A stretch of DNA of 64,000 bases from an uncultured Alphaproteobacteria bacterium (GTDB lineage Bacteria; Pseudomonadota; Alphaproteobacteria; Geminicoccales; Geminicoccaceae): assembly GCA_937926445.1 (NCBI GenBank), contig CALBAK010000006.1, positions 1 to 64,000 on the forward strand, given 5' to 3'. Shown one piece after another: positions 12,462-25,409 of this stretch. The notes beneath the pieces are model-generated. The model did no database searches. It was given only the letters and a program-made list of their open reading frames with translations, and was not told the origin of the DNA. A program made the translations under genes and the position numbers. Position 1 is the first letter of the stretch; each line of letters opens with the position of its first letter.

Positions 12462-12944
12462 TCAGCGGCGGTCCCGCTCGGCCAGGGCTTCCTCTGCCCA
12501 GTCGACCTCTTCCTCGCTCACGAGCTCGCCGCGCATGGAGGGACCGCGGATTTGCACGGCCTCGGGGTCGCCGCAGACCAGGTGATGCTACTCGGGGAGG
12601 CAGACCCCGAAGGCGACGAGCCGATAGGCGCAGCTCCGAAGCAGCCAGGAGAGGGCTCGGATGTTCTCGGGCGTCAGCGCCACACAGTCGGGGACCCGCA
12701 CGTGACGGTCGGCATAGTGGCGGCAGCGATGGGTGCAGAGGTCGAGCAGCCGGCAGGCCACGTCGGAGAGCGCCGTCTCGCCGGTGTCCGGGTCCTCGAC
12801 ACGGATCTGGTAGCAGAGGCCGCAACCGTCGCAGAGCTCCTCCCACTCGGCCGGGCTCAGGGCCGCGAGCGCCTTGGTGCGCCAGAAGCCGGGCTCGAGC
12901 CCGGCTTCCAGTGACAGGTGATCTGGGGCGCAGCTGCGCGTCAA
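12462..12944 (-). pseudogene. UPF0260/YcgN-like Cys-cluster protein broken by in-frame TAG
   Basis: The frame reads a YcgN-family protein: FWRTKALAALSPAEWEELCDGCG, here given only as family landmarks WEELCDGCG, DVACRLLDL, RVPDCVALTPENIRAL and SCAYRLVA. The frame meets a TAG at 12588-12590 where relatives have a Trp in LPxWHPLVSGDP. The same frame continues as HHLVCGDPEAVQIRGPSM and then RGELVSEEEVDWAEEAL to a natural TGA at 12462-12464. A single TGG-to-TAG change therefore truncates it. The first Cys cluster reads CGLCY where relatives have CGKCC, so a conserved Cys is also lost, along with other usually invariant positions. The TTG start overlaps the stop of the upstream fused cytochrome gene by four bases. 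Function of the family is unknown; the Cys cluster suggests metal or Fe-S binding. Confidence 0.8.
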
Positions 12945-14077
12945 CGGCTTACCTGCAGGCCGGTGAGCCAGGCGAGGATCGCCTTCAGGTCCTCCTCGCT
13001 GGCGGTGTCCTTCCAGGCCGGCATGACGAGACCCGACTGGGTCTGCAACCGGCCCTCGCGGACCGCCTGCCAGTAGGCTTCGGTCCAGCCCGTGCGGTAG
13101 CGGATCTTCATCCGCCGCAGATCGCGCGGCTTGTCGGGGCCGACTGCTTCGGGCCCGTGGCAGTGGGCGCAGCCCAGGACCGAGTTGAAGAGCTCGCGGC
13201 CTCGCTCGGCGATCGCCTGGAGGTCGTCCGCGGCCGGCGCTTCGGCTGCGACCCTGACGATGCCCGGGGCGACGGCCGGCGCGATCGAACCCTGCCGCTC
13301 CGCGCTCGCTGGCAGCCAGTTCCAGACGATGCGACCGTCCTGGCGCAGACCGTAGTCGCGGGCGATCGCCGCGATCTCGTCACGCATGCCGCGCAACAGC
13401 TCCTCGAGCCGGTCGCGCAGAGGCTTGTTGGCACGGGCGACGCCGGCTGCCGAGCGCCAGCGCAGCCGCGGTCCGTCGACCGCCACGATCGTGAAGCGAC
13501 GGCCGGTTTCCCGCTCGATCCAGGGGACGGGGGCTTCCCAGACGAAGGCGGCATCGACCTCGCCGCGGGCGAGCGCGCGAAGCGCCTCTTCGGGCTCGCG
13601 GAAGGTCACGGGCCCGACGCCGTCGAGGGTGGCGAGCGCATTCTGCGCTTCGCTGTTGAAGGCGACCGCGACGCGTCGGCCGCGCAGCTCTTCGATCGCA
13701 CCGACCGAGTTTCCCTCGGGCAGAACGAGCACGTAGCCGAGCTCGAGGAGAGGTCCCGCCACCAGCAGGCGCGGCCCCATGAGGCCCTTCACGTCGGGCA
13801 CGCCGAGCATGACGTCGCAGCGGTCGGCCAAGAGCGTCAGGCGGATGGCGCGTTTGCCGAGGTCGGTCGGCCACCAGTAGACCTGGAACGGCCGGTCGAG
13901 GGCGCGCGCCAGGCGCTCGCCGACCTCGTAATAGACCCCGTGCCGCTCACCCGCGACCATGCTCAAGGGCGGCGTGTCGGGATCGAGGCAGACGCGGAAC
14001 GGCTCGGTGGCGACCGCCTCGGCGAGGGGGGCGAGAAAGAGAAAGGCGGCGGTGAAAAGGAACGGGAGGCGTCGCAA
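12941..14077 (-). CDS. MoxJ/XoxJ-like binding protein fused to cytochrome c
   Basis: A 378-residue periplasmic protein with signal peptide (residues 1-23, ending AEAVA). Residues of about 25-255 form a family-3 solute-binding-type domain (FRVCLDPDTPPLSM, ELRGRRVAVAFNSEAQ, ARGEVDAAFVWEAPV) like the MoxJ/XoxJ proteins of quinoprotein dehydrogenase operons. The C-terminal 100 residues are a c-type cytochrome with the heme site CAHCH at 303-307 and a probable axial Met in GLVMPAW near 352. MoxJ-like proteins are thought to help assemble or activate the dehydrogenase, and the cytochrome accepts its electrons. Here both are one polypeptide. It lies 57 bases downstream of the PQQ dehydrogenase, separated by a strong hairpin. 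Confidence 0.85.
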   Translation of the reverse strand: MRRLPFLFTAAFLFLAPLAEAVATEPFRVCLDPDTPPLSMVAGERHGVYYEVGERLARALDRPFQVYWWPTDLGKRAIRLTLLADRCDVMLGVPDVKGLMGPRLLVAGPLLELGYVLVLPEGNSVGAIEELRGRRVAVAFNSEAQNALATLDGVGPVTFREPEEALRALARGEVDAAFVWEAPVPWIERETGRRFTIVAVDGPRLRWRSAAGVARANKPLRDRLEELLRGMRDEIAAIARDYGLRQDGRIVWNWLPASAERQGSIAPAVAPGIVRVAAEAPAADDLQAIAERGRELFNSVLGCAHCHGPEAVGPDKPRDLRRMKIRYRTGWTEAYWQAVREGRLQTQSGLVMPAWKDTASEEDLKAILAWLTGLQVSR

Positions 14078-14099
14078 GGGGGCGTCTCCGGGGACCGGG

Positions 14100-14126
14100 G
14101 ACGGGCGGTCCCTCGGACCGCCCGTC
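14100..14126 (-). terminator. 12-bp GC stem-loop between PQQ dehydrogenase and fused cytochrome
   Basis: GACGGGCGGTCC at 14100-14111 pairs perfectly with GGACCGCCCGTC at 14115-14126 around a CTC loop. No T-run follows on the minus strand, so it may attenuate rather than end transcription. Such stems between a highly expressed dehydrogenase and its downstream partners can set unequal transcript levels; that role is inferred. Confidence 0.55.
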
Positions 14127-14134
14127 CTGCAGGA

Positions 14135-15838
14135 TCACTCGAGGGTGAAAGCGAACAGCATGCCCGCCGTCGGCTGGGCGTCGATCATCTTGCGGCCGAT
14201 ATCACCCAAGAAGCCCGGAATGGTCTCCGAACGGCCGACCGCGACGACGACGTACTGCTTGCCGCCGACCTCGTAGGTCGACGGGCCGGCATGGATGCCG
14301 GAGCCGAGCTGCTTCTTCCAGAGCACCTCGCCGGTCTTGGCGTCAACGGCGCGGAACTCGCCTTCGTAGTTCCCTGCGAAGACGAGACCGCCTGCGGTCG
14401 CTAGGGCACCCCCGTTGAAGGGCCACTTCTCCTGGATGCTCCACACCTTCTTGCGGGCGACCGGATCCCAGGCGATCAGCTCGCCGAGGTAGCCGCCGGG
14501 CCCGGGCTTCGTCGGGAAGTCCTTGCCGAGGTAGAAGGAGCCACGCTTGTACTCGACCTCGCTGTCCTCCATGTCCATGCAGAGGTTGTTGGCCGGGATG
14601 TAGACGAGCTTGGTCTGCGGGCTCCAGGCCATCGGCATCCAGTTTTTGCCGCCGATCAGATTCGGGCAGATGTCGGTGGCCTTCTTTTTGAGCCCGGGCC
14701 GTTTCGCCGGATCCTCGATCGGCCGCTGGGCGGCCAGATCGTAGCCCTTGGCCCAGTTGGTCGGCACGAAGGTGTCGGCCGACAGGGCCTTGCCGGTGGT
14801 GCGGTCGAGCACGAAGAAGAAGCCATTGCGATCGGCCTTGAGGCCGACCGGATCGGGCTTGCCGTCACCCGTGACGTCGATGTCGACGAGAACGAGTTCG
14901 TTGACGCCGTCGTAGTCCCAAGCGTCGTGCGGCGTGCCCTGGAAGCCCCAGACGATCTTGCCGTCGTCGGGATTCACGGCGATCGTCGCGGCGGTCCATT
15001 TGTTCGTGTATTGTCCGTAATCGGAAGTGTTGGGGCCGCGGACGTGGGCGGCCCAGGGGGCCGGGTTCGAGGTGCCGAAATAGGCGAGGTTGCGCTCCGG
15101 GTCGTAAGAGGCGACGAGCCAGACGGTGCCACCGCCGTGCTTCCAGGAATCGCCCTTCCACGACTCGTTGCCGGGCTCGCCCGGACCCGGCACGGTCCAG
15201 GTCTTCCAGCGCTCCTTGCCGGTCTTCTTGTCGAAAGCCACGATGTAGCCGCGAGCGCCGTACTCGCCGCCACCGAAGCCGGTGATCACGAGGTCCTTCA
15301 CGACCAGCGGCGGGGAAGTGATCACCGAACCCTGCTTGTAGTCGACCACGTCGGCGGTCCAAACCTCTTCGCCGGTCTTGGCGTCGAGGGCGGTCAGGGC
15401 CCCGTCGAGCCGGCCGACGAAGAGGAGACCGTCGCTGTAGGCGGCTCCGCGGTTGACGACGCCGCAGCAGGCGTATTGCTGTACACCAGCCGGCATCTCG
15501 AGGTCGACCTTCCAGCGGATCGCGCCGGTGGCCGCGTCGAGCGCCATCACGTGCTGGGGCCCGTTGGCGCTCGTCACGAACAGCGTGTCACCGACGACGA
15601 GCGGGGTGCTCTCCTGACCGAAGGCATTGCCGAGCGAGCGCGCCCAGGCGAAGGAGAGCTTCTTGACGTTGTCGCGGTTGATCTGAGCGAGCTCGCTGTA
15701 ATGCCACTTCTGGTAGTTGCCGCCGTACATCGGCCATCCGGTGTCTGCGGCTCGGGCCGTCACGGCGGCGCCGAGCGCTCCGGCGGCACAGCCGGCCAGA
15801 AGTGTACGTCGTAACAGCATGCGTGCGTCGATTCGCAT
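14135..15838 (-). CDS. PQQ-dependent alcohol dehydrogenase, ExaF/PedH-like, predicted lanthanide type
   Basis: A 567-residue quinoprotein. The signal peptide MRIDARMLLRRTLLAGCA ends near TARA (residue 30). The vicinal disulfide pair is C124-C125 (YACCGVVNRG). The active site reads PHDAWDYDGVNE, with catalytic Asp308 and a second Asp310. In this family Asp two residues after the catalytic Asp marks lanthanide-binding enzymes, while calcium enzymes have Ala or Ser there. DRNGFFFVLDRTTGK and GGKNWMPMAWSP resemble ethanol-type ExaA/ExaF more than methanol-type XoxF. It oxidises primary alcohols (and possibly aldehydes) in the periplasm and passes electrons to cytochrome c. The start chosen has a purine-rich GGGGGG upstream; an earlier in-frame start would precede the signal peptide by 22 residues. 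Confidence 0.9.
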   Translation of the reverse strand: MRIDARMLLRRTLLAGCAAGALGAAVTARAADTGWPMYGGNYQKWHYSELAQINRDNVKKLSFAWARSLGNAFGQESTPLVVGDTLFVTSANGPQHVMALDAATGAIRWKVDLEMPAGVQQYACCGVVNRGAAYSDGLLFVGRLDGALTALDAKTGEEVWTADVVDYKQGSVITSPPLVVKDLVITGFGGGEYGARGYIVAFDKKTGKERWKTWTVPGPGEPGNESWKGDSWKHGGGTVWLVASYDPERNLAYFGTSNPAPWAAHVRGPNTSDYGQYTNKWTAATIAVNPDDGKIVWGFQGTPHDAWDYDGVNELVLVDIDVTGDGKPDPVGLKADRNGFFFVLDRTTGKALSADTFVPTNWAKGYDLAAQRPIEDPAKRPGLKKKATDICPNLIGGKNWMPMAWSPQTKLVYIPANNLCMDMEDSEVEYKRGSFYLGKDFPTKPGPGGYLGELIAWDPVARKKVWSIQEKWPFNGGALATAGGLVFAGNYEGEFRAVDAKTGEVLWKKQLGSGIHAGPSTYEVGGKQYVVVAVGRSETIPGFLGDIGRKMIDAQPTAGMLFAFTLE

Positions 15839-15944
15839 CGTGCCCCCCTCTTCGGCGCATGGCAGCCATGCGCCTCCTGTCGCCGAGGCCCGACCGTCTG
15901 TCAACGGCCCTGCGACCGGCCGTCCCGCCGACGGCGAGGATGGT

Positions 15945-16781
15945 TCAGCGGCGCCAGCGCTCGACGCGCCGGGCGAGCGGCTCGAGGCCGGCCCATTCGA
16001 CGAGTTGGACGATGGCGACGAAAGCGAGTGCGTAGGCCAAAATGGTGGCCACGTCGAAGAGCTGGAAAGCGGTGTGGATCTGGAAACCGACCCCGTTCGG
16101 CCGACCGAGGAGTTCGACGACTAGCACGATCTTCCACACGAGCGCGAGGCCCGAGCGGGCGGCGGCCAGGAGATAGGGAGCGAGCTGGGGCAGGACGAGA
16201 TGCGCGAGGACGCGGCCACGCGGCACGGCGAAAGCCTGCGCCATCTCGAGGAGACCCTTGTCGAGGGCGCGGGCCCCCTCGCGCACCGTGACCGCGACGT
16301 TCGGAATCTTGTTGAGCGCGACGGCGGTGATCGCGGCGGCCTCGATCAGGCCGATCCAGATGTAGCAGAGTACGATCGTGACGAGGGCGGGCATGTTGAG
16401 GGCGAGAAGGAGCCAGGGGCGGCCGAACTCGTCGGCGGGCGCGAGCCGACCCATGAGGATGCCCACCGCGGTGCCCACGGCCATGGCGATCGCGAAGCTC
16501 GCCGCGACGCGAGCGAGGGTGGCGGCGAGGTGGTGCAGGAGCTCGCCGGCGGCCAACTCCCGGACGCCCGCCTCGAAGACCGCGAGCGGGCCCGGTAGGG
16601 TTCGCGGCGCTTCGGCGAGCGCGGCGGCGGCGGCCCAGAGCCCGATCAGGACGAGGAAGGAGGCGAGCGGCAGGAACCGCCGCGACCGCGAGCCGAGCGG
16701 CGGCGCGGAGGGGGCCGGGGCGCTCGGGAGCGCCGCGCCCTCGAGGCCGGCTTCACCAGACAAGCGGCCAGAACGTGCCAT
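15945..16781 (-). CDS. NitT/TauT-type ABC permease in the PQQ operon
   Basis: A 278-residue permease with about six transmembrane segments (LASFLVLIGLWAAAAAL; FAIAMAVGTAVGILMGRLA; LVTIVLCYIWIGLIEAAAI; a C-terminal ILAYALAFVAIVQLVEW). The EAA-like loop LLEMAQAFAVPRGRVLAHLV followed by LPQLAPYLLAAARSG places it in the SsuC/TauC/NrtB group. The ATG at 16781 overlaps the end of the upstream binding-protein gene by 29 bases. A matching ATP-binding subunit is not found anywhere nearby, unlike usual operons. In quinoprotein clusters such transporters are suspected of moving substrate, cofactor or metal; the cargo here is unknown. Confidence 0.85.
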   Translation of the reverse strand: MARSGRLSGEAGLEGAALPSAPAPSAPPLGSRSRRFLPLASFLVLIGLWAAAAALAEAPRTLPGPLAVFEAGVRELAAGELLHHLAATLARVAASFAIAMAVGTAVGILMGRLAPADEFGRPWLLLALNMPALVTIVLCYIWIGLIEAAAITAVALNKIPNVAVTVREGARALDKGLLEMAQAFAVPRGRVLAHLVLPQLAPYLLAAARSGLALVWKIVLVVELLGRPNGVGFQIHTAFQLFDVATILAYALAFVAIVQLVEWAGLEPLARRVERWRR

Positions 16782-17742
16782 CGGGCAGGCTCTTGGCTTT
16801 GCCGACGAGCTTCTCGCCGCCGAGCTCGGCGAGGACGGCGAAGAGCTTGGCGGCGGCCTGCCGCTCGGCTTCGCCCCAGCTCGCGACGATCCCCTCGCGG
16901 TAGCGCTGCCGGAGCGTCCGGAAGGTCGACTCGTCCTCGGCACGGGTGAGGGGTCGCAACTTCTCCCATTCGGCGTCGCTCTCTTTCATGATGGCCTTGG
17001 CGGCGCGAGAGGCGCGCGAAAAGGCGGCGATCCGCTCCGGGTTGGCCTTGGCCCAGCCCTCTTTAAAGATGTAGCCGAGCTGCGGGGTGGTGGGCGGCAC
17101 ACCGAGGGCGGCCATGGCGTCGGCCACACCCAAGAGCCGGGTCATGCCGCGGGCCTCGAGGCGGGCGGCGAAGGGCCAATAGGTCAGCACCGCGTCGAGC
17201 TCGCCCGAAGCGAGTTTCTCGGAGAGGAGCGGCGGCGCGCCGAACACCGGGCTCGCCGCACTCGCGAGCTCGAGGCCGGCCTCGCGCCGGGCCAGGCCCT
17301 GTAGGATGAGCCAGCTCTTGTCGAGCGCGCCGCCGGCCACGCCGAGCTTCTTGCCGGCGAGATCGGCGAGCTTGGTGATGCCGCGATCCGGCCGGACGAC
17401 GAGCGCGCCCACGGCGCTCGAATAGGGCAGGAAGCTCACCGCGACACCCTCGGCGCGTTGGCGCGCGACCCAGAGCCAATCCTCGACCACGATGTCGACC
17501 GCATCGCCCATGAAGGCGATCGAGGCGGCGTCGTTGGCGGCGAATTCCTGGACTTGGAGGGTGAAGCCCTCCTTGGCGTCGAGACCGTGGCGTTTGACGA
17601 CGTCCAGCTCCCAGCTCACCGTTCCGAAGCGCAGCACGCCCGCGCGTATCGTACCGAATTCGGCCGCCGCGAGCGACGCCGGGCCGAAGGCGGCGAGCAG
17701 CACGACGGGAAAGAAGAAGCGACGGAACACCGAACGGAACAT
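16753..17742 (-). CDS. NitT/TauT-type periplasmic binding protein in the PQQ operon
   Basis: A 329-residue protein starting MFRSVFRRFFFPVVLLAAF with a Sec signal peptide ending ASLAAAEF. It has the family pattern GTVSWELDVVKRHGLDAKEGF, followed by VQEFAANDAASIAFMGDAVD, GVAGGALDKSW and GELDAVLTYWPFAARLEA. Relatives bind nitrate, sulfonates, taurine or thiamine-precursor-like ligands, and a subgroup is encoded beside PQQ alcohol dehydrogenases. It is the first gene of the minus arm and diverges from the cupredoxin-like gene across a 268-base region. A longer frame would add 16 residues before the signal peptide and is not preferred. Confidence 0.85.
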   Translation of the reverse strand: MFRSVFRRFFFPVVLLAAFGPASLAAAEFGTIRAGVLRFGTVSWELDVVKRHGLDAKEGFTLQVQEFAANDAASIAFMGDAVDIVVEDWLWVARQRAEGVAVSFLPYSSAVGALVVRPDRGITKLADLAGKKLGVAGGALDKSWLILQGLARREAGLELASAASPVFGAPPLLSEKLASGELDAVLTYWPFAARLEARGMTRLLGVADAMAALGVPPTTPQLGYIFKEGWAKANPERIAAFSRASRAAKAIMKESDAEWEKLRPLTRAEDESTFRTLRQRYREGIVASWGEAERQAAAKLFAVLAELGGEKLVGKAKSLPDGTFWPLVW

Positions 17743-17963
17743 CGCGGGCGCCTCCCCCTCGCACGGATCAGCGATCAGATGATCCGCCACCGCTCCAGTG
17801 ACAAGGGCCGTTCACCGTGCCGTCTCTCCTTCGATCGACAATCCCCCTCGGAGTTCTCGCCGCGAACGACCGAAACCGCGAGCGGGCAGCGAAGCACCGG
17901 TCCGGGCGGTAGGCCGGCCGCGTGCAGCCCCGTGTCTTGACAGGCAACCAAATTGCCGCTTAT

Positions 17964-17979
17964 CGCTCTCATAAGAGCG
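17964..17979. repeat. Inverted repeat upstream of cupredoxin-like gene
   Basis: CGCTCT at 17964-17969 and AGAGCG at 17974-17979 are separated by CATA. The element lies 31 bases before the cupredoxin start in the divergent region between the two PQQ arms, a plausible place for an operator. It is short, so chance is possible. Confidence 0.35.
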
Positions 17980-18010
17980 GCTTCGGTGGCGGCCGAGAAA
18001 GGGAGGGGCG

Positions 18011-18427
18011 ATGCTGTATCGAGCGCTGTTCGCTTTGCTCGCGGGGACGCTGGTCGCCACTGCCGCGGAGGCCGCCGGAAACCTCGCCACCAAACCGACC
18101 CGCCTCGAGGTCGCGATCAACAAGGATCTCCAGTTCTCCAAGAAGGAGTTCCAACTCGAGACCGGTAAATATTATCGGCTCACGGTCGACTCGAAAGCCG
18201 GCGACGAGGTGATGTTCATCTCGCCCGATCTGTTCCGCAACGCCTGGATCTCGCAGATCGTGATCGCGGGAATCGAGGTGCACCCGATGGGTGGGATCGA
18301 AGGGATCGAGTTCGACGAGGACGGCAAGGTCGACATCTACTTCGTGCCGATCCGCACGGGCGATTTTACCTTCGGCCTCAAAGGGCATGAGGGCCGCGGC
18401 GCGGTCGGCAAGTTCGTCGTCCGCTGA
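18011..18427 (+). CDS. Cupredoxin-fold periplasmic protein lacking the usual Cys ligand
   Basis: A 138-residue protein with a signal peptide (MLYRALFALLAGTLVATAAEA). The mature chain (FQLETGKYYRLTVDSKAGDE, then VHPMGGIEGIEF, then DIYFVPIRTGDFTFGLKGHE) has the beta-sandwich pattern of cupredoxins. It contains no cysteine, so a type-1 copper site of Cys-His-His-Met type is impossible. Remaining His residues (HPMGG, KGHEGRG) could still bind a metal. GGGAGGGGCG precedes the ATG. It begins the plus arm of the PQQ island, 24 bases before the next gene. Electron transfer is doubtful; metal handling or an accessory role for the dehydrogenase is inferred. Confidence 0.75.
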   Translation: MLYRALFALLAGTLVATAAEAAGNLATKPTRLEVAINKDLQFSKKEFQLETGKYYRLTVDSKAGDEVMFISPDLFRNAWISQIVIAGIEVHPMGGIEGIEFDEDGKVDIYFVPIRTGDFTFGLKGHEGRGAVGKFVVR

Positions 18428-18450
18428 GTTCGGTCCCCGGAGGTCGTACC

Positions 18451-19644
18451 TTGGTCTCGCCCCTGCGCGCCGTGACCGTTGCTCTGGCGCTGGTAGCCGC
18501 CGCGACGTCGGTGCACGCGCTGGAGCGGCCCAAGGTCACGCTCGGCTATATCGGGCTCGAGGACGATCCGCGGTACCGCGAACTCAAGACCTACGCCAAC
18601 GTCCCGATTCGCCCGGCGATCGTGCCGCTCGACGGTGCCGCCGTGGCGATGCGGGACGCGCGCGCGATCGGTCGGGCGATCGGCGTCGAGATCGGCCTCG
18701 AATCGCTGCGGGTGAAGGATCTGGACGGCGCGCTCGCCGGGGTCGAGCGGCTGACGAGCGCGTTCGGCGTGCGCTTTCTGCTGGTCGACGTCGAGGACGG
18801 GATGCTGGCCGAACTCGCCGCTCGCACCAAGGGCCGCGAGCTCGTCCTCCTTAACGTTTCCGCGCGCGACGATCGGTTACGGGGCGAGGCGTGTGCCCCG
18901 CACCTGTTCCATGTCGCCGCGAGCCGGACGATGCTCGCCGATGCACTCGGCCAATATCTCGCCAACCAACAATGGCGGGATGCGCTCCTGCTGGTCGGGC
19001 CGGAGGCCGAGGATGCGCTTTGGGGCGAGGCCTTCACCCGTGCCATCCGCCGCTTCGGCGGTCGGGTGGTCGAGACCCGGCGCTTTGTCTCGGGGCGCGA
19101 TCCGCGGCAGCGCGAACAGAACAACGTCCGCCTGTTGACCCAGGGTGTGGCCTACGACGTCGTGGTCGTCGCCGACACCAACGGGGAGTTCGGCCGCGCG
19201 TTGCCCTACCAGACCGTGCTGCCGCGGCCCGTGGTGGGGACGCACGGGCTCGTGCCCTCGGTCTGGCACTGGGCCTACGAGCGGCAGGGCGCGCCGCAGC
19301 TCGAACAGCGCTTCGAGCGCGCGCTGACGGTCCCGCGCAAGATGCAGGATCCGGAATTCTCGGCCTGGGCGGCGATCCGGGCGGTGCTCGAGGCCATGAG
19401 CCGGGCCCGCTCGAGCGACTTCACGAAGGTGCGCGAAGCGCTCCTCGACCAGAGCGTGACCCTCGATCTCTACAAGGGTGCGCCTTCGACCTTCCGGCCG
19501 TGGGATCTCCAGCTTCGCCAGCCGATCCTGCTCGGGACCCTGGACGCGGTGATCGCCCGGGCGCCGCTCGACCGCTTCCTCCACCAGCGCAACACGCTCG
19601 ACACTCTGGGTGTCGACCAGCCCGAGAGCCGCTGCCGGTTCTGA
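18451..19644 (+). CDS. ABC-type binding protein of PQQ alcohol dehydrogenase systems
   Basis: A 397-residue periplasmic protein of the Leu/Ile/Val-type binding fold. Signal peptide: VSPLRAVTVALALVAAA to VHALE. The pattern KVTLGYIGLEDDPRYRELK, followed later by VVADTNGEFGRALPYQT, VWHWAYERQGAPQLEQRF and PSTFRPWDLQLRQPILL, matches the subfamily found beside PQQ-dependent alcohol dehydrogenases. The start codon is TTG, chosen because GGAGGT lies seven bases upstream and a signal peptide follows at once. In other genomes this protein has its own ATPase and permease partners; neither is present here. The ligand is unknown. Confidence 0.85.
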   Translation: MVSPLRAVTVALALVAAATSVHALERPKVTLGYIGLEDDPRYRELKTYANVPIRPAIVPLDGAAVAMRDARAIGRAIGVEIGLESLRVKDLDGALAGVERLTSAFGVRFLLVDVEDGMLAELAARTKGRELVLLNVSARDDRLRGEACAPHLFHVAASRTMLADALGQYLANQQWRDALLLVGPEAEDALWGEAFTRAIRRFGGRVVETRRFVSGRDPRQREQNNVRLLTQGVAYDVVVVADTNGEFGRALPYQTVLPRPVVGTHGLVPSVWHWAYERQGAPQLEQRFERALTVPRKMQDPEFSAWAAIRAVLEAMSRARSSDFTKVREALLDQSVTLDLYKGAPSTFRPWDLQLRQPILLGTLDAVIARAPLDRFLHQRNTLDTLGVDQPESRCRF

Positions 19645-19765
19645 TCCCGCGGGCGGGTCGTCGCGGCGATTTATTCGCACTTGCTGAATTTCAGAGGAGG
19701 GCGTAGCCCTTCGGGCGGTTTGCCGTCGCGTGACGGGGGCCGATATCCCCGAAGGGGGGCGGAGA

Positions 19766-21472
19766 ATGAAAAAGCATACGAGCTGGCTCGCAGGAGCCAG
19801 CCTCCTCGCTGTGGCGGTCGGCGCGACCGGCAGCGTACAGGCTCAGGAGGTCAAGGGAGCCACCAAGTACGGCGACACGCGCACCGCGACCCAGCGCGTG
19901 CTGAACGCCGCTGCCGGTGACGGGAACAACTTCCTGTACACGAACCACAACTACCATCAGACCCGCTTTTATCCGAACCCGCAGATCAACACGTCGAACG
20001 TGCACCTGCTGCGCCCGGCCTGGATCTTCCAGACCGAGTTCAAGGAGACGATGGAAACCACGCCGATCGTGGTCAACAGCGTTATGTACGTGACCACGGC
20101 GTTCAACCACGTCTACGCGTTGGATGCCCGGACCGGTGAGCAGCTCTGGCACTACAAGCACAAGCTCGGACCGATCACGGTCTATTATTGCGGCCCGAAC
20201 AATCGCGGCGTGGCGGCCTATGGCGACATGGTCTACATCGGCACCCTCGACCCCAAACTCGTTGCCCTCGATGCCAAGACGGGCAAGCTCGTCTGGGAGA
20301 CCGAGATCTCCGATCCCGAGCTCGGCTACTCGGAGACCATGGCGCCGACAGCGGTCGACGGGAAGATCCTGATCGGCATGAACGGCGGCGAGTACGGCAT
20401 CCGCGGCTTCGTCAAGGCGTTCGACGCCAAGACCGGCAAGCGCGTCTGGACCTTTCACACGATCCCCGAGAACTCCGTCGGGGTCTGGGCGACGCAGGAC
20501 GCCACCGGCCGCGACTTGAAGCGCGACATCGCAGCCGAGAAGGAAGTGCTCGCCAAGACGGGCGATCCGTACATGACGCTCGGTGGCGGGGTCTGGCAGA
20601 ACCCGGCGGTCGACCTCGAGCGCCGGCGGATCTATTTCGTGGTGGGCAACCCCTCACCCGACCTCGACGGCTCGCTCCGGCCTGGCGACAATCTCTATAC
20701 CGACAGCCTCGTGGCGGTGGATCTCGACACCGGCAAGTACCTCTGCCACTTCCAGTACATCGCGCACGACGTGTGGGATCTGGATGCGGTCAGCCCGCCG
20801 ATCCTGATCGATGTGAAGGACGAGGACGGCAAGGTCGTGCCGGGTGTGATCCACGACGGCAAGACCGGCCACGTCTACGTCCACAAGCGGGACGATTGCT
20901 CGCTCATCCGCTTCTCCGAGGCGATGATGCCGCAGGAGAACATGTGGGTCATGCCGACCAAGGAAGGCGCCCGCATGCTGCCCGGCGCCAACGGTGGCAT
21001 CGAGTGGTCGCCCATGGCCGTGGACGAGCGGCTCGGCCTCGCCTACGCCATGAACCTGCACCAACCTATGATTTATCACGTCGAGAGCACACCCTATCCG
21101 GGTGGCGAGCCTTGGCTCGGCAGCGCGTTCAAGGTCATTCCGAGCGAAGAGCAGTGGGGGATCCTCTCCGCGGTCGACTACAACACCGGCAAGATCCGCT
21201 GGGAGGTCAAGACGCCGCAGCCCTTGATCGGCGACGTGCTGGCGACCGCTGGTGGACTGGTCTTTTTCGGCGCGGGCAACGGCCGCTTCAACGCCCTCGA
21301 TTCGGCGACCGGTGCGCAGCTCTGGAGCTTCCAGGCCGGTGCCGGCGTCGACGCGCCGCCAGCCAGCTACACGGTGGACGGCAAGCAGTACATCGTGGTG
21401 GCGACGGGTGGGAACACCCAGCTCGACTACGAGTGCCGCAACAATATCATCGCCTTCAGCCTCGCCGATTGA
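19766..21472 (+). CDS. Second PQQ-dependent dehydrogenase, divergent, no vicinal disulfide
   Basis: A 568-residue quinoprotein with signal peptide ([20 protein letters not shown], cleavage near VQAQ). Beta-propeller W-motifs recur ([48 protein letters not shown]). The active-site segment is [13 protein letters not shown], with catalytic Asp338 and a second Asp340 in the lanthanide-associated position. Where type-I alcohol dehydrogenases have the Cys-Cys pair, this protein reads YYCGPNNRG (Y141-C142), so the vicinal disulfide is absent. It belongs to a less-studied PQQ dehydrogenase clade and the substrate is unknown. An earlier in-frame start would add 12 residues before the Lys-Lys signal start. 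The diheme cytochrome 94 bases downstream is the likely electron acceptor. Confidence 0.88.
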
Positions 21473-21566
21473 GGCAGGCGACGGTCGATTTTCTTCATCC
21501 GCATGGGCGGTGTCGGGCGACCGGCGCCGCCCGCAGCGAGAGGACGGATCCCGAGGAGCACGCCCC

Positions 21567-22202
21567 GTGACCCGATCTACCCCCCGGCTTCTGCTCGCCC
21601 TATGCGCCGTACCGATCGCTTGGCTCGTCGCCACGGGCGTCCACGCCGAGGGCGAGCGGCCGCCGGCGCCGTCCACGATTCCGGGGATCGACCAGCTCGC
21701 CGGACATCTGGCGGAGCTCGTGCCGATGTGCGTGGCCTGCCACGGCGAGAACGGAGTGCCGAACTATGCAGAATCACCGATCATCGACGGCCAGCACGAG
21801 GGCTACATCTACATCCAGCTGCGCGACTACAAGAACGGATCGCGCAAGCACGAGGTGATGAACGAGATCGTCAAGGATTTGTCCCGGCAGGATCTCCGCG
21901 AGCTCGCCGCCTTCTTCGCCAAGCGCCCGTGGCCGCGGCTGCAGCAGCAGGCCGAGGAGGGCGACGACGTGGTGGCCGAGAGGCTGGCCAGCGCCGGCAT
22001 GTGCAAGGAATGCCACCTCGGCGGCTACCTGGGCGACGGCACCGTGCCGCGGCTCGCGGGCCAGCTCACGAGCTACCTCGTCGTCACGATGCGCGCCTTC
22101 AAGACGAAAGAGCGCGCCAACAACGCCGCGATGTCGAGCCTCCTCGACACCTACACCGACGAGGAGATCGACGTGCTCGCCCGTTACTTGGGCGCGCTCT
22201 GA
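21567..22202 (+). CDS. Diheme c-type cytochrome
   Basis: A 211-residue periplasmic cytochrome. The signal peptide runs to about residue 27 (ATGVHA). Two heme sites are visible: CVACH at 55-59 and CKECH at 146-150, each in a cytochrome c4-like half (PIIDGQHEGYIYIQLRDYKNG and PRLAGQLTSYLVVTMRAFK). Such proteins shuttle electrons from periplasmic dehydrogenases to oxidases. The GTG start is favoured by GAGGAGC upstream. The 3' end overlaps the convergent ankyrin gene by 19 bases. It is the natural partner of the second PQQ dehydrogenase. Confidence 0.9.
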   Translation: MTRSTPRLLLALCAVPIAWLVATGVHAEGERPPAPSTIPGIDQLAGHLAELVPMCVACHGENGVPNYAESPIIDGQHEGYIYIQLRDYKNGSRKHEVMNEIVKDLSRQDLRELAAFFAKRPWPRLQQQAEEGDDVVAERLASAGMCKECHLGGYLGDGTVPRLAGQLTSYLVVTMRAFKTKERANNAAMSSLLDTYTDEEIDVLARYLGAL

Positions 22203-22798
22203 GTCCGAGGCGCGCGTTCGGCGATCGCCGGCTCGGCCGCGAGCTCGGCCAATCCCAGGCCCTCGCGGTCGCGCCAGCCCGGATCGGCGCCGTGCTCCAG
22301 CAGGAGGGCGACGAGGCGCTCGTTGCCGTTGAAAACGGCGGCGAGCGGGGTGAGGCCGCTGCGGCCGGGCCGATCGACGGGCGCACCGTGCTCGAGCAGG
22401 AACCGGACGACGTCCACCTGGTCGAGCTCGCTCGCCAGCAGGAAAGGTGTGCTGCCGGCGAGATCGGGGGCGGCGAGGTCGGCGCCCGCCTCGAGGAGGA
22501 GCCGCGCGGTCTCCTCCTTGGCGCCGCGGGCGGCGTGGTGGAGCGCCGTCCGCCCCGTCCGATCGCGCGCCCGCGGCGAGGCGCCACGGCCCAGGCGCTC
22601 GCGCAGGATCGCGACGCAGCCTTTTTCGGCGGCGAGTGCGAGCTCCCGGTCGAGCCGACGTTGCTCGACCGTGCCCGGGACCAGGAAGTCGCGCGCGAGC
22701 TGCTCGCAGACGCGATCGGCGGCCCGCGCCGAGGGGGCGGCAACCAGCATCGGGCCGACGACGAAGGGGGAGGCGCAGACGAGCCGGGCATAGCGCAT
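22184..22798 (-). CDS. Secreted ankyrin-repeat protein
   Basis: A 204-residue protein starting MRYARLVCASPFVVGPMLVA, a signal peptide ending SARAAD. After a Cys-containing linker (RVCEQLARDF), about four ankyrin repeats follow: GCVAILRERLGRGASPRARD, GRTALHHAARGAKEETARLL, GSTPFLLASELDQVDVVRFL and GLTPLAAVFNGNERLVALLL. Ankyrin repeats mediate protein contacts; periplasmic ones are often linked to redox or stress partners. It lies opposite to and within the PQQ plus arm, so a role in that system is possible but unproven. A longer frame upstream is antisense to the beta-propeller gene and rejected. Confidence 0.8.
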   Translation of the reverse strand: MRYARLVCASPFVVGPMLVAAPSARAADRVCEQLARDFLVPGTVEQRRLDRELALAAEKGCVAILRERLGRGASPRARDRTGRTALHHAARGAKEETARLLLEAGADLAAPDLAGSTPFLLASELDQVDVVRFLLEHGAPVDRPGRSGLTPLAAVFNGNERLVALLLEHGADPGWRDREGLGLAELAAEPAIAERAPRTQSAPK

Positions 22799-22953
22799 CG
22801 GTACGAATTCTACCGTTCTGGCGACGGCCCATTCTCGCGTGGGCCGGAAGATTTGACGAGCGTCGGCCCCCATTCCCCGGCGCACGGCTTTTCGAGCGTT
22901 CGAATGCGCCTTATGTCGGCTATCGCACCGACTTATGGCTTCGGAGAGGGAGC

Positions 22954-23934
22954 ATGCGGAAGACGACGGCTTCGTTGGCATCGGCGCTGCTCGCGCTGAC
23001 GCTCGCGGCCACGGAGGCGGCGGCGGCACAGGGTTTCGCGATCGTGACCAACGAGAAGTCCGCCAATTTCTCGGTCTACGACCTCGACGGCAATCTGCTC
23101 CGCACGGTTCCGGCCTGCAGTCGCCCCCGCGGCATGGTGTTCACCAAGGACCGCAAAGAGTTCCTCGTCTGCTGCGCCGAGGACAACATGATCGGCGTCT
23201 TCGACACGCAGACCCAGAAGCTCGTTCGCCGGTTGCCCAACGTGCTCTATCCCGAGGTGCATTACCTGCATCCGGACGGCCGGCATCTCTATGTCTCGAA
23301 CGAGGAGGACAGCCAGGCGACGGTCTTCGACCTCGAGACGGGCCGACAAGTGGCCGCCTACGACACGGGCGCCGAGCCCGAAGGGATCATCGTCACGAAC
23401 GACGGGAAGCTCGCTTTCGTCGCCTCGGAGGCGGCCAATCTCCTCCACGTCATCGACATCGAGAAGGAGGAGATCGTCAAGGATATCGTGATGAACACGC
23501 GTCCCCGCCGTATGGCGCTGACCCCCGACGGTAAGGAACTCTGGGTCTCGGCCGAGATCGCCGGCGTCGTCGACATCGTGGACATCGGCAAGCTCGAGAT
23601 GGTTCACACGATCGACTTCGAATTTCCGGGGCTGCGGAAAGAGAACGTCACCCCGGTCGACGTCCTGGTCGACCGTCGCGGCGAGCGTGCCTATGTCGGG
23701 CTCGGGCGCGCCAACCACGTGGCCGTGATCGACGTCAAGACGCGCAAGCCCACGAACTACATTCTGGTGGGTCGGCGGCCGTGGGGTCTGGCGCTGAACA
23801 AGGACGAGAGCCGCCTCTGGGTGACCAACGGCCTGTCCGACGACGTGACCATCATCGACACGAAGACCCTGAAGCCGCTCAAGAGCATGCCCGCCGGCGA
23901 GGTGCCCCACAGCATCCTCATCTTCGAGCCCTGA
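22954..23934 (+). CDS. PQQ-dependent catabolism-associated beta-propeller protein
   Basis: A 326-residue periplasmic seven-bladed YVTN-type propeller with signal peptide (residues 1-25, ATEAAAAQ). Blade motifs repeat: VYDLDGNLLRTVPACSRPRG, DGRHLYVSNEEDSQATVFDL, NDGKLAFVASEAANLLHVID, DGKELWVSAEIAGVVDIVDI and KDESRLWVTNGLSDDVTIID. This composition matches the propeller subfamily encoded beside PQQ-dependent alcohol dehydrogenases. It carries no heme or enzyme motif. GAGAGGGAGC precedes the ATG. Function is unknown; scaffold or sensor roles are guesses. It closes the plus arm of the island. Confidence 0.87.
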   Translation: MRKTTASLASALLALTLAATEAAAAQGFAIVTNEKSANFSVYDLDGNLLRTVPACSRPRGMVFTKDRKEFLVCCAEDNMIGVFDTQTQKLVRRLPNVLYPEVHYLHPDGRHLYVSNEEDSQATVFDLETGRQVAAYDTGAEPEGIIVTNDGKLAFVASEAANLLHVIDIEKEEIVKDIVMNTRPRRMALTPDGKELWVSAEIAGVVDIVDIGKLEMVHTIDFEFPGLRKENVTPVDVLVDRRGERAYVGLGRANHVAVIDVKTRKPTNYILVGRRPWGLALNKDESRLWVTNGLSDDVTIIDTKTLKPLKSMPAGEVPHSILIFEP

Positions 23935-24471: not shown

Positions 24472-25377
24472 TCACCAGACCGGCTGCTGGGCCACCTTTT
24501 CCAGCAGGAAGTCACGGAACACCGCGACTCGCTTCGAGTTCCGCAGCTCCTCCGGATACACGAAATAGCCCGTGAAGCTCGGACCATCGAGCTCCGGTAG
24601 CACGCGCACAAGAGAGCCGCTGCCGCTCGCCAGATAGTCCGGCAGCGAGGCGAGGCCGAGCCCGCTCTGCACCGCACGCAGCATCCCGTAGACGTTGTTG
24701 ACGCGCAGCGCCGCCTTTCGCGGCCGATCGATCTCGCCTTCCTCGAGCCCGGCGTAGAGGATCCAGTTGAGGGGCTGGCTCGATAGGTTCGGATCTTCGC
24801 CGTAGGCCACGAGACGATGTCGGTCGAGGTCGGCGGTCGAGGTCGGCGTACCGTGCCGCTCGAGGTAGGACTGAGCGGCATAGATGTGGGTGTGAACCGT
24901 CATCAGCCTACGCTGGATGAGGTCGGACTGGGTCGGCCTTTGCATCCGCACCGCGACGTCGGCCTCGCGCATCGAGAGGTCGAGTTCCGCATCGGTGACG
25001 ATCAGCGAAATCGTGATCTCGGGGTAGCGGTCGAGGAACTCGCCGAGATGCGAGGCGAGCCAAACCGTGCCGACACCCACGGTCGTACAGACCCGCAGAT
25101 GGCCGGCCGGCACCTCGCGGCTCTCGCGCAGCGCAGTCTGGGCGGCGGCCATCTTGCGGGCGATCTCGCGCGCCGCCTCCACCAGGATGTCGCCCTGCTC
25201 GGTGAGCACGAGGCCGCGGGCGTGCCGATGGAAGAGCGGAGCGCCCAGATCCTCCTCAAGCGCGCCGATCTGCCGGCTGATCGCCGACTGCGACAGACCG
25301 AGACGGTCGGCGGCGCGGGTGAAGCTGCCCGCCTCGGCGACCACGTGGAAGATGCGAACCCGATCCCAGTCGAGCAT
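24472..25377 (-). CDS. LysR-family transcriptional regulator
   Basis: A 301-residue regulator. Residues of about 1-60 are the winged helix-turn-helix (LDWDRVRIFHVVAEAGSFTR, AADRLGLSQSAISRQIGALE), followed by the LysR substrate-binding domain (HLRVCTTVGVGTVWLA, DAELDLSMREADVAVRM, AVQSGLGLASLPDYLA). It is related to the group whose DNA-binding domain begins with LDWDR-type sequence, common next to trxB in alphaproteobacteria. The ligand and regulon are unknown. It follows trxB by 32 bases and may be co-transcribed. Confidence 0.92.
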   Translation of the reverse strand: MLDWDRVRIFHVVAEAGSFTRAADRLGLSQSAISRQIGALEEDLGAPLFHRHARGLVLTEQGDILVEAAREIARKMAAAQTALRESREVPAGHLRVCTTVGVGTVWLASHLGEFLDRYPEITISLIVTDAELDLSMREADVAVRMQRPTQSDLIQRRLMTVHTHIYAAQSYLERHGTPTSTADLDRHRLVAYGEDPNLSSQPLNWILYAGLEEGEIDRPRKAALRVNNVYGMLRAVQSGLGLASLPDYLASGSGSLVRVLPELDGPSFTGYFVYPEELRNSKRVAVFRDFLLEKVAQQPVW

Positions 25378-25409
25378 GTGCTCCGCGCGTCCCCCGTCTC
25401 GCTCGGGCC

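Follow-up and report, generated by a model that had tools for sequence, protein, structure and literature searches.

When lanthanide is low, growth of Pseudomonas putida through PedH is reported to require the binding protein PedA1, the propeller protein PedA2, the ATPase PedB and the permease PedC (PMC6839425), and the similar lut genes of Methylorubrum extorquens are described as needed for efficient lanthanide-dependent growth (PMC7391723). PqqT of M. extorquens, for which high-affinity binding of pyrroloquinoline quinone (PQQ) has been published (PMC12124388), also binds lanthanide via PQQ, and PDB entry 9B1V holds the protein with PQQ and Gd (PMC12828617). Fusions of XoxG and XoxJ that serve a quinoprotein are known in Methylacidiphilum (PMC8498564, PMC8170126). 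The analysis reported here concerns positions 12462–23934 of the window, a 64,000-nucleotide stretch of contig CALBAK010000006.1 (GenBank assembly GCA_937926445.1) from an uncultured alphaproteobacterium of the family Geminicoccaceae, where two PQQ alcohol dehydrogenases, a left (ADH_L) and a right (ADH_R), lie in two gene arms. Judged by homology and linkage, this region is probably a lanthanide-and-PQQ supply-and-use island, a system of the known ped, lut and xox kind.

The window is part of one (C6) of the 120 contigs of a 3.7 Mb genome (G000). A tmRNA that ARAGORN flags with an asterisk, the sign of a permuted gene, and Bradyrhizobium matches of ADH_R both indicate Alphaproteobacteria. A preliminary description of the region had recognized two divergent arms, each with a binding protein, a PQQ dehydrogenase and a c-type heme protein, and this layout was borne out, the arms meeting at about 17743–18010; the content related to lanthanide and PQQ transport had been missed. 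The features, with strand, are as follows.

12588–12944, minus: YcgN-family cysteine-cluster protein (NCBIfam YcgN models, E 6e-38, below cut-off); overlaps the end of the fusion gene
12941–14077, minus: MoxJ/PedG-like domain (residues 27–244) fused to a mono-heme cytochrome c (CAHCH at 303)
14135–15904, minus: ADH_L, left PQQ alcohol dehydrogenase (probable start 15838; vicinal Cys-Cys, WDYD)
15945–16781, minus: ABC permease beside the PqqT-like gene (BPD_transp_1, 72 bits, over cut-off)
16753–17790, minus: PqqT-like periplasmic binding protein (probable start 17742; homology to PDB 9b1u)
17937–17975, plus: promoter/operator-like site, TTGACA then CTTATCGCTCTCATAAG (17959–17975)
18011–18427, plus: CUP, a small exported protein (alignment A1, 12 homologues)
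18451–19644, plus: PedA1/LutA-like binding protein (TIGR03863, 395.6 bits, cut-off 413.6)
19730–21472, plus: ADH_R, right PQQ alcohol dehydrogenase (WDLD; one Cys instead of two in the vicinal position; start probably at 19766)
about 21567–22202, plus: diheme cytochrome c (heme motifs CVACH and CKECH; exceeds the cut-offs of Cytochrom_C and CBB3; PdsA 77 bits, below its cut-off of 330)
22184–22798, minus: ankyrin-repeat protein with a signal-like N-terminus (Ank_2, 79 bits), convergent with the diheme gene
about 22954–23934, plus: PedA2-like beta-propeller (TIGR03866, 313.9 bits, cut-off 287.3)

Like the ped cluster of P. putida KT2440 (PedE/PedH, PedF, PedG, PedA1A2BC; PMC6839425, PMC12997753), the island has quinoprotein alcohol dehydrogenases, cytochrome c, a periplasmic binding protein and a transporter of the PedA1/A2/B/C type. 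Unlike that cluster, its dehydrogenases fall in two other clades, its J-type and cytochrome parts are fused, a PqqT-like gene, a diheme cytochrome and an ankyrin protein are added, and PedB and PedC are on another contig. With lut and xoxFGJ of M. extorquens AM1 it shares LutA/B/E/F-type transporter genes, a lanthanide-type quinoprotein, a cytochrome and a J protein (PMC7391723), whereas here ADH_L is sister to the XoxF clade and both sets are interleaved at a single locus. No TonB receptor was present among the annotated island genes, unlike in lut of M. extorquens AM1, and none was searched for elsewhere. The PqqT-like protein is of the same family as PqqT of that strain (9B1U/9B1V), but the island copy is linked to lanthanide-transporter and alcohol dehydrogenase genes. 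The Methylacidiphilum XoxG/XoxJ proteins similarly join a J-type binding protein to a c-type cytochrome and are tied to a quinoprotein; the island fusion accompanies ADH_L and is ordered with the J part first and the heme part last.

The components of a putative lanthanide transporter were found both in and beyond the window. The window PedA2 exceeded the TIGR03866 cut-off, and PedA1, while scoring below cut-off, covered the whole of the TIGR03863 model, its sole family match. PedB (TIGR03864, 319 bits, cut-off 302) and PedC (TIGR03861, 402 bits, cut-off 241) are on contig C70 of the same genome, together with a taurine/sulfonate-like ATPase (C70:3130–5422). The same three genes lie together in G005 near 3.142 Mb, and in both genomes the surrounding frames look unrelated, although these neighbours were not searched against families. 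With ATPase, PedB and PedC on another contig, the PqqT-like gene and permease of the window have no adjacent ATPase and the lanthanide transporter is split. In two congeners (G001 and G003) the ATPase, PedB and PedC lie in the left arm between the permease and ADH_L (in G001, TIGR03864 322 bits and TIGR03861 380 bits, both over cut-off), and the four lanthanide-transporter parts are divided between both arms. The ATPase and PedC of G002 are at the ends of two contigs, with PedB not seen, and PedC of G004 is on its contig C181.

The conservation search covered 115 relatives, of which G000–G005 are the members of the genus sampled. Both arms were present in all six, indicating that the arrangement is more than chance. 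They are contiguous in G000, G001, G003 and G005, and because G005 is a single-contig genome this contiguity is no binning artefact. One contig of G004 carries the right arm, the binding protein, the permease and most of ADH_L, and ends there; in G002 one contig runs from the right arm to the left ATPase, with PedC, ADH_L and the fusion on a second. Conservation of the inter-arm region is low (columns average 50 % identity) except for a TTGAC and a CTTAT-N7-ATAAG palindrome, which are kept in all six species. The two elements together occur once in the 3.7 Mb genome and in none of 100 window shuffles. The exact palindrome (N6–8) has one copy in the window genome, against 2, 1, 2, 2 and 2 copies in G001–G005, none in G006 and G017, and one in G026; the reversed pattern was absent from the genus and occurred 1, 2 and 1 times in G006, G017 and G026. 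In G004 and G005 the second palindrome is directly before PedA2. The site between the arms is operator-like and may co-regulate them.

The second palindrome of G001 and G003 (L192 2663; L193 2163) is upstream of a gene that we take to be katG-like, a position that hints at an oxidative-stress or metal regulator. A LysR gene at approximately 24472–25380 was considered as island regulator and rejected: it is 90–97 % identical in all six species, yet it adjoins a TrxR-like gene and GreA and may be conserved flank.

Beyond the genus, the two arms are mostly separate. G017, G026, G030, G089 and G101 carry an ADH_R of at least 68 % identity, whereas the fusion was detected in G006 and G026 (55 %) and in G100 (34 %). 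G017, G030 and G101 have the right core but lack the left fusion genome-wide, G006 and G100 have the left core with no ADH_R-type match, and G026 has both arms, not adjacent on the contigs available. Bradyrhizobium, Caballeronia, Ideonella and Paraburkholderia have the right core without a left arm in the flanks read, their whole genomes not having been searched for the left arm, and among plasmid records none reaches 80 % coverage of the fusion. This distribution, the placing of the two enzymes in distant clades and the mixed histories of the right-arm genes, of which PedA1, PedA2 and CUP differ in history from ADH_R, would suit two independent alcohol-oxidation cassettes that are neighbours by chance in one genus, with no functional coupling. 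We nevertheless consider such a chance pairing unlikely, since both arms are kept in all six species although the proteins diverge (67–89 % identity to the window for ADH_R and 77–91 % for ADH_L), a single conserved palindrome lies between them and the ped genes of G001 and G003 are divided across both. The composite alcohol-oxidation system proposed in the preliminary description is supported within the genus by the presence of both arms, the shared palindrome and the split transporter of G001 and G003, while the separation of the arms that would speak against it is largely what is seen outside the genus (G017, G030, G101, G006, G100) and is not seen inside it. The clade reasoning behind that proposal, concerning the disulfide and an ExaF-like enzyme, was wrong.

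The supply of PQQ in the proposed island would depend on the left binding protein, which is a PqqT homologue: 140 of 293 residues (48 %) are identical to PDB 9b1u (261 bits), and a profile of 14 PqqT-like homologues matched 9b1u/9b1v and 9ooz at 366 and 364 bits. The Lys at the position corresponding to K142 (offset inferred) is invariant in all 14. PQQ binding is predicted from this similarity, and the position of the genes suggests PQQ transport by the permease and ATPase. Among 318 genomes of the class, PqqT-like proteins (matches with E up to 1e-40) were found in 34 and PedC (TIGR03861 over cut-off) in 45, with both in 32 compared with 4.8 expected, relatedness uncorrected. In 15 of these 32 genomes, representing nine families, the two genes are within 10 kb of each other. 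The permease adjoins the PqqT-like gene in 33 of the 34 genomes (the exception is G280) and the ATPase does so in 31, but not in G000 or G005, while G100 stops at a contig edge. PQQ and ped genes form a single same-strand run of seven genes in G105, G220, G314 and G155, and one of six, with no propeller match, in G341; in G311 the trio of PqqT-like gene, permease and ATPase adjoins xoxF- and xoxJ-like genes. PqqE was over cut-off in 27 of the 34 genomes, and the window genome has it on C8. No PqqE match at 1e-60 was obtained in G204, G280, G316, G220, G338 or G108, and G038 gave a partial match; PQQ uptake would be consistent with an importer retained in the absence of PqqE. The six genomes without a match (loci L152, L154, L148, L158, L159 and L157) are candidate PQQ non-producers.

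A small molecule other than PQQ itself, either sulfonate-like or a lanthanide chelate, is quite unlikely as the cargo of the PqqT-like importer. The protein does give weak matches to sulfonate/taurine families, the case for PQQ is one of homology and linkage, and PqqT binds lanthanide via PQQ (PMC12828617); against this stand the 48 % identity to a PQQ-binding protein, the invariant Lys and the linkage to quinoprotein and ped genes.

The two dehydrogenases of the island carry the D-x-D motif (WDYD in ADH_L, WDLD in ADH_R), which is kept in all aligned homologues of both and has been described as a lanthanide indicator for PQQ alcohol dehydrogenases (PMC11996626). ADH_L reached 647 bits with TIGR03075, over cut-off. 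Phylogenetic trees were built from 49 rows (tree 1, after dropping the partial or misread rows Lf_G002, Lf_G004 and o_G029 from 52) and from 41 rows (tree 2, eleven of the 52 dropped, namely these three and long-branch, partial or duplicate rows); both contain few named references, six of which are segments from PDB alignments. The ADH_L clade joined four XoxF-type rows with support of 95/94 in tree 1 and 90/83 in tree 2, in both as their sister and not inside the XoxF clade. ADH_R formed its own clade (100/100 in both trees), distant from that of ADH_L and apart from the ExaA/PedH and quinohemoprotein enzymes; the long row o_G057 joined it in tree 1, and ADH_R was still its own clade after removal of that row. 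ExaA, PedH and a Methylorubrum PedF/PedG-linked enzyme made up a separate clade, again with 100/100 in both trees, and neither island enzyme falls with PedH. The left enzyme had been called ExaF-like, which these trees do not bear out. Compared with the ADH_L, XoxF, ExaA and PedH rows, the ADH_R pocket has Lys for Arg, Glu/Gly for Asn/Asp and Ile/Leu/Val for Trp or Asn at three positions.

Absence of the vicinal disulfide had been read as a mark of the ADH_R clade but proved private to the window copy and due to one codon. Of 26 ADH_R homologues read, the window copy included, 25 have Cys-Cys (17 aligned rows, six read later and both P. sprentiae copies), and only the window copy differs, with YYCGPNNRG and a Tyr codon, TAT, at 20186–20188. 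That ADH_R is decaying or inactive in this genome, with the island working via ADH_L only, is very unlikely: the private Cys-to-Tyr change and a branch longer than that of the sister G005 (0.12 versus 0.03 in tree 1) would fit, but the frame is full-length, the residues for metal binding, catalysis and the remaining PQQ contacts match those of the clade, and the codon could be an assembly error.

Further quinoproteins were observed in these genomes. A third one in G000 (L068 9137–10843, contig C31) has Ala-Leu at the vicinal site, yet D-x-D, and adjoins genes for a Rieske-type protein and for a molybdenum-oxidoreductase-like one. Contig C29 (L069 9481–13614) carries a separate XoxF-type enzyme together with a XoxJ-like protein (TIGR03871, 289 bits, over cut-off). 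In the sister genus (G006, L091 8470–13906; G026, L101) another quinoprotein has Thr-His at the Cys-Cys site, with J-type and PedA2-like genes as neighbours in both genomes and PedA1-like and CUP-like genes also in G006.

In each of the nine genomes that have an ADH_L-clade enzyme, a single open frame encodes the J-type domain and cytochrome c of the left arm. The best PDB match of the window protein is XoxJ (6onp_A), and its heme part matched Cytochrome_CBB3 at 41.7 bits, over cut-off.

On the right arm, a diheme cytochrome and an ankyrin gene are both near ADH_R in 19 of 21 loci with at least 60 % identity and readable flanks (the window, L051–L054, L056, L060–L063, L071–L075, L102, L103, L176 and L178); two further loci, L064 and L177, stop at contig edges. 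Neither gene was near ADH_R on the P. sprentiae plasmids (L104, L105), nor in relatives at about 50 % ADH_R identity (G009, G053, G281). Seven plasmids were opened out of 14 records at 60–80 % ADH_R identity, and that of Alloyangia pacifica carries, in about 16 kb, ADH_R, the cytochrome, ankyrin, PedA1/A2-like, PqqT-like and CUP-like genes, XoxJ and XoxF, in an arrangement that differs from the genus island. A search of the literature in one open library returned no paper joining PQQ alcohol dehydrogenase, lanthanide and ankyrin, though such links may still be published; among papers that mention PqqT, PMC13088180 does no more than cite a PQQ ester.

Homologues of CUP lie near ped/lut-type genes, and within alignment A1 residues E66 and E89 are invariant and E100 and D102 nearly so. 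CUP had been described as having a cupredoxin fold, which is unproven: there was no Pfam match, the best PDB profile match was filamin at E 0.021 and a single-sequence AlphaFold model failed (pLDDT 44.8). A cupredoxin assignment was set aside on these grounds, no fold search having been run. The ligand set of a type-1 copper site includes Cys, and CUP has no Cys and therefore no such site.

A gene-level mosaic was observed across 18011–23934 (compared with L051–L054 and L056). The window CUP, PedA1 and PedA2 are 81–84, 78–82 and 69–83 % identical to those of G001–G003 and 49–51, 70–71 and 64–66 % identical to those of G004 and G005, while for ADH_R and the diheme cytochrome the nearer genomes are G004 and G005 (85–89 %). 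At the far end of the left arm, the YcgN-family gene probably lies outside the system; a tblastn search of 22 loci at 1e-5 gave no match for it, and in G005 the next ABC gene follows the fusion gene directly, with no YcgN gene between (tblastn at 1e-5).

Metal use, substrates, PQQ import, the electron path, co-regulation and the role of the ankyrin protein are inferred from families and neighbours, and a working model can be proposed on that footing. PedA1 and PedA2 of the right arm would form, with PedB and PedC, a lanthanide transporter of the PedA1A2BC/Lut type, while the PqqT-like protein and permease of the left arm, with the ATPase encoded beside PedB and PedC, would recapture PQQ. ADH_L and ADH_R would then oxidize alcohols in the periplasm with PQQ and lanthanide. 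The fusion may serve ADH_L, its MoxJ-like part docking or activating and its heme part taking electrons. Electrons from ADH_R would pass to the diheme cytochrome, those of both routes would go on to an oxidase, and the ankyrin protein, the usual companion of ADH_R, may be a scaffold or maturation factor.

Besides the separation of the arms outside the genus and the differing gene histories, several results weigh against a lanthanide-and-PQQ island. PedA1 is below its family cut-off, ADH_R reached 461 bits with TIGR03075 (cut-off 480) and the fusion protein scored 77.8 bits with TIGR03871, well below the cut-off of 212. The ATPase, PedB and PedC of the window genome lie outside the island. The 318 genomes are related, so the 32 co-occurrences are not independent events; 13 of the 32 PqqT-like/PedC pairs are on different contigs and four are far apart on one, and G038 and G059 have a PqqT-like gene without PedC. 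A sigma-70 scan gave no promoter in 17600–18100, and a palindrome search of the window with two mismatches found two sites compared with 1.26 expected, the extra site being at chance level and not before PedA2.

A more far-reaching and rather doubtful possibility is that the PqqT-type importer and PedA1A2BC act as one supply system, which would take up or recover lanthanide and PQQ together, perhaps as a complex, for dedicated quinoproteins, with CUP as a new lanthanide-binding periplasmic component. Irrespective of this, genes for a PqqT-type (PQQ-binding) importer are closely linked to lanthanide-transporter genes in nine families. The J-cytochrome fusion, found here outside Methylacidiphilum, bears on how J proteins act at the meeting point of dehydrogenase and cytochrome. 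The diheme cytochrome and ankyrin protein are concrete candidate partners for the ADH_R clade, which extends over Alpha- and Betaproteobacteria and to which we could assign no known enzyme.

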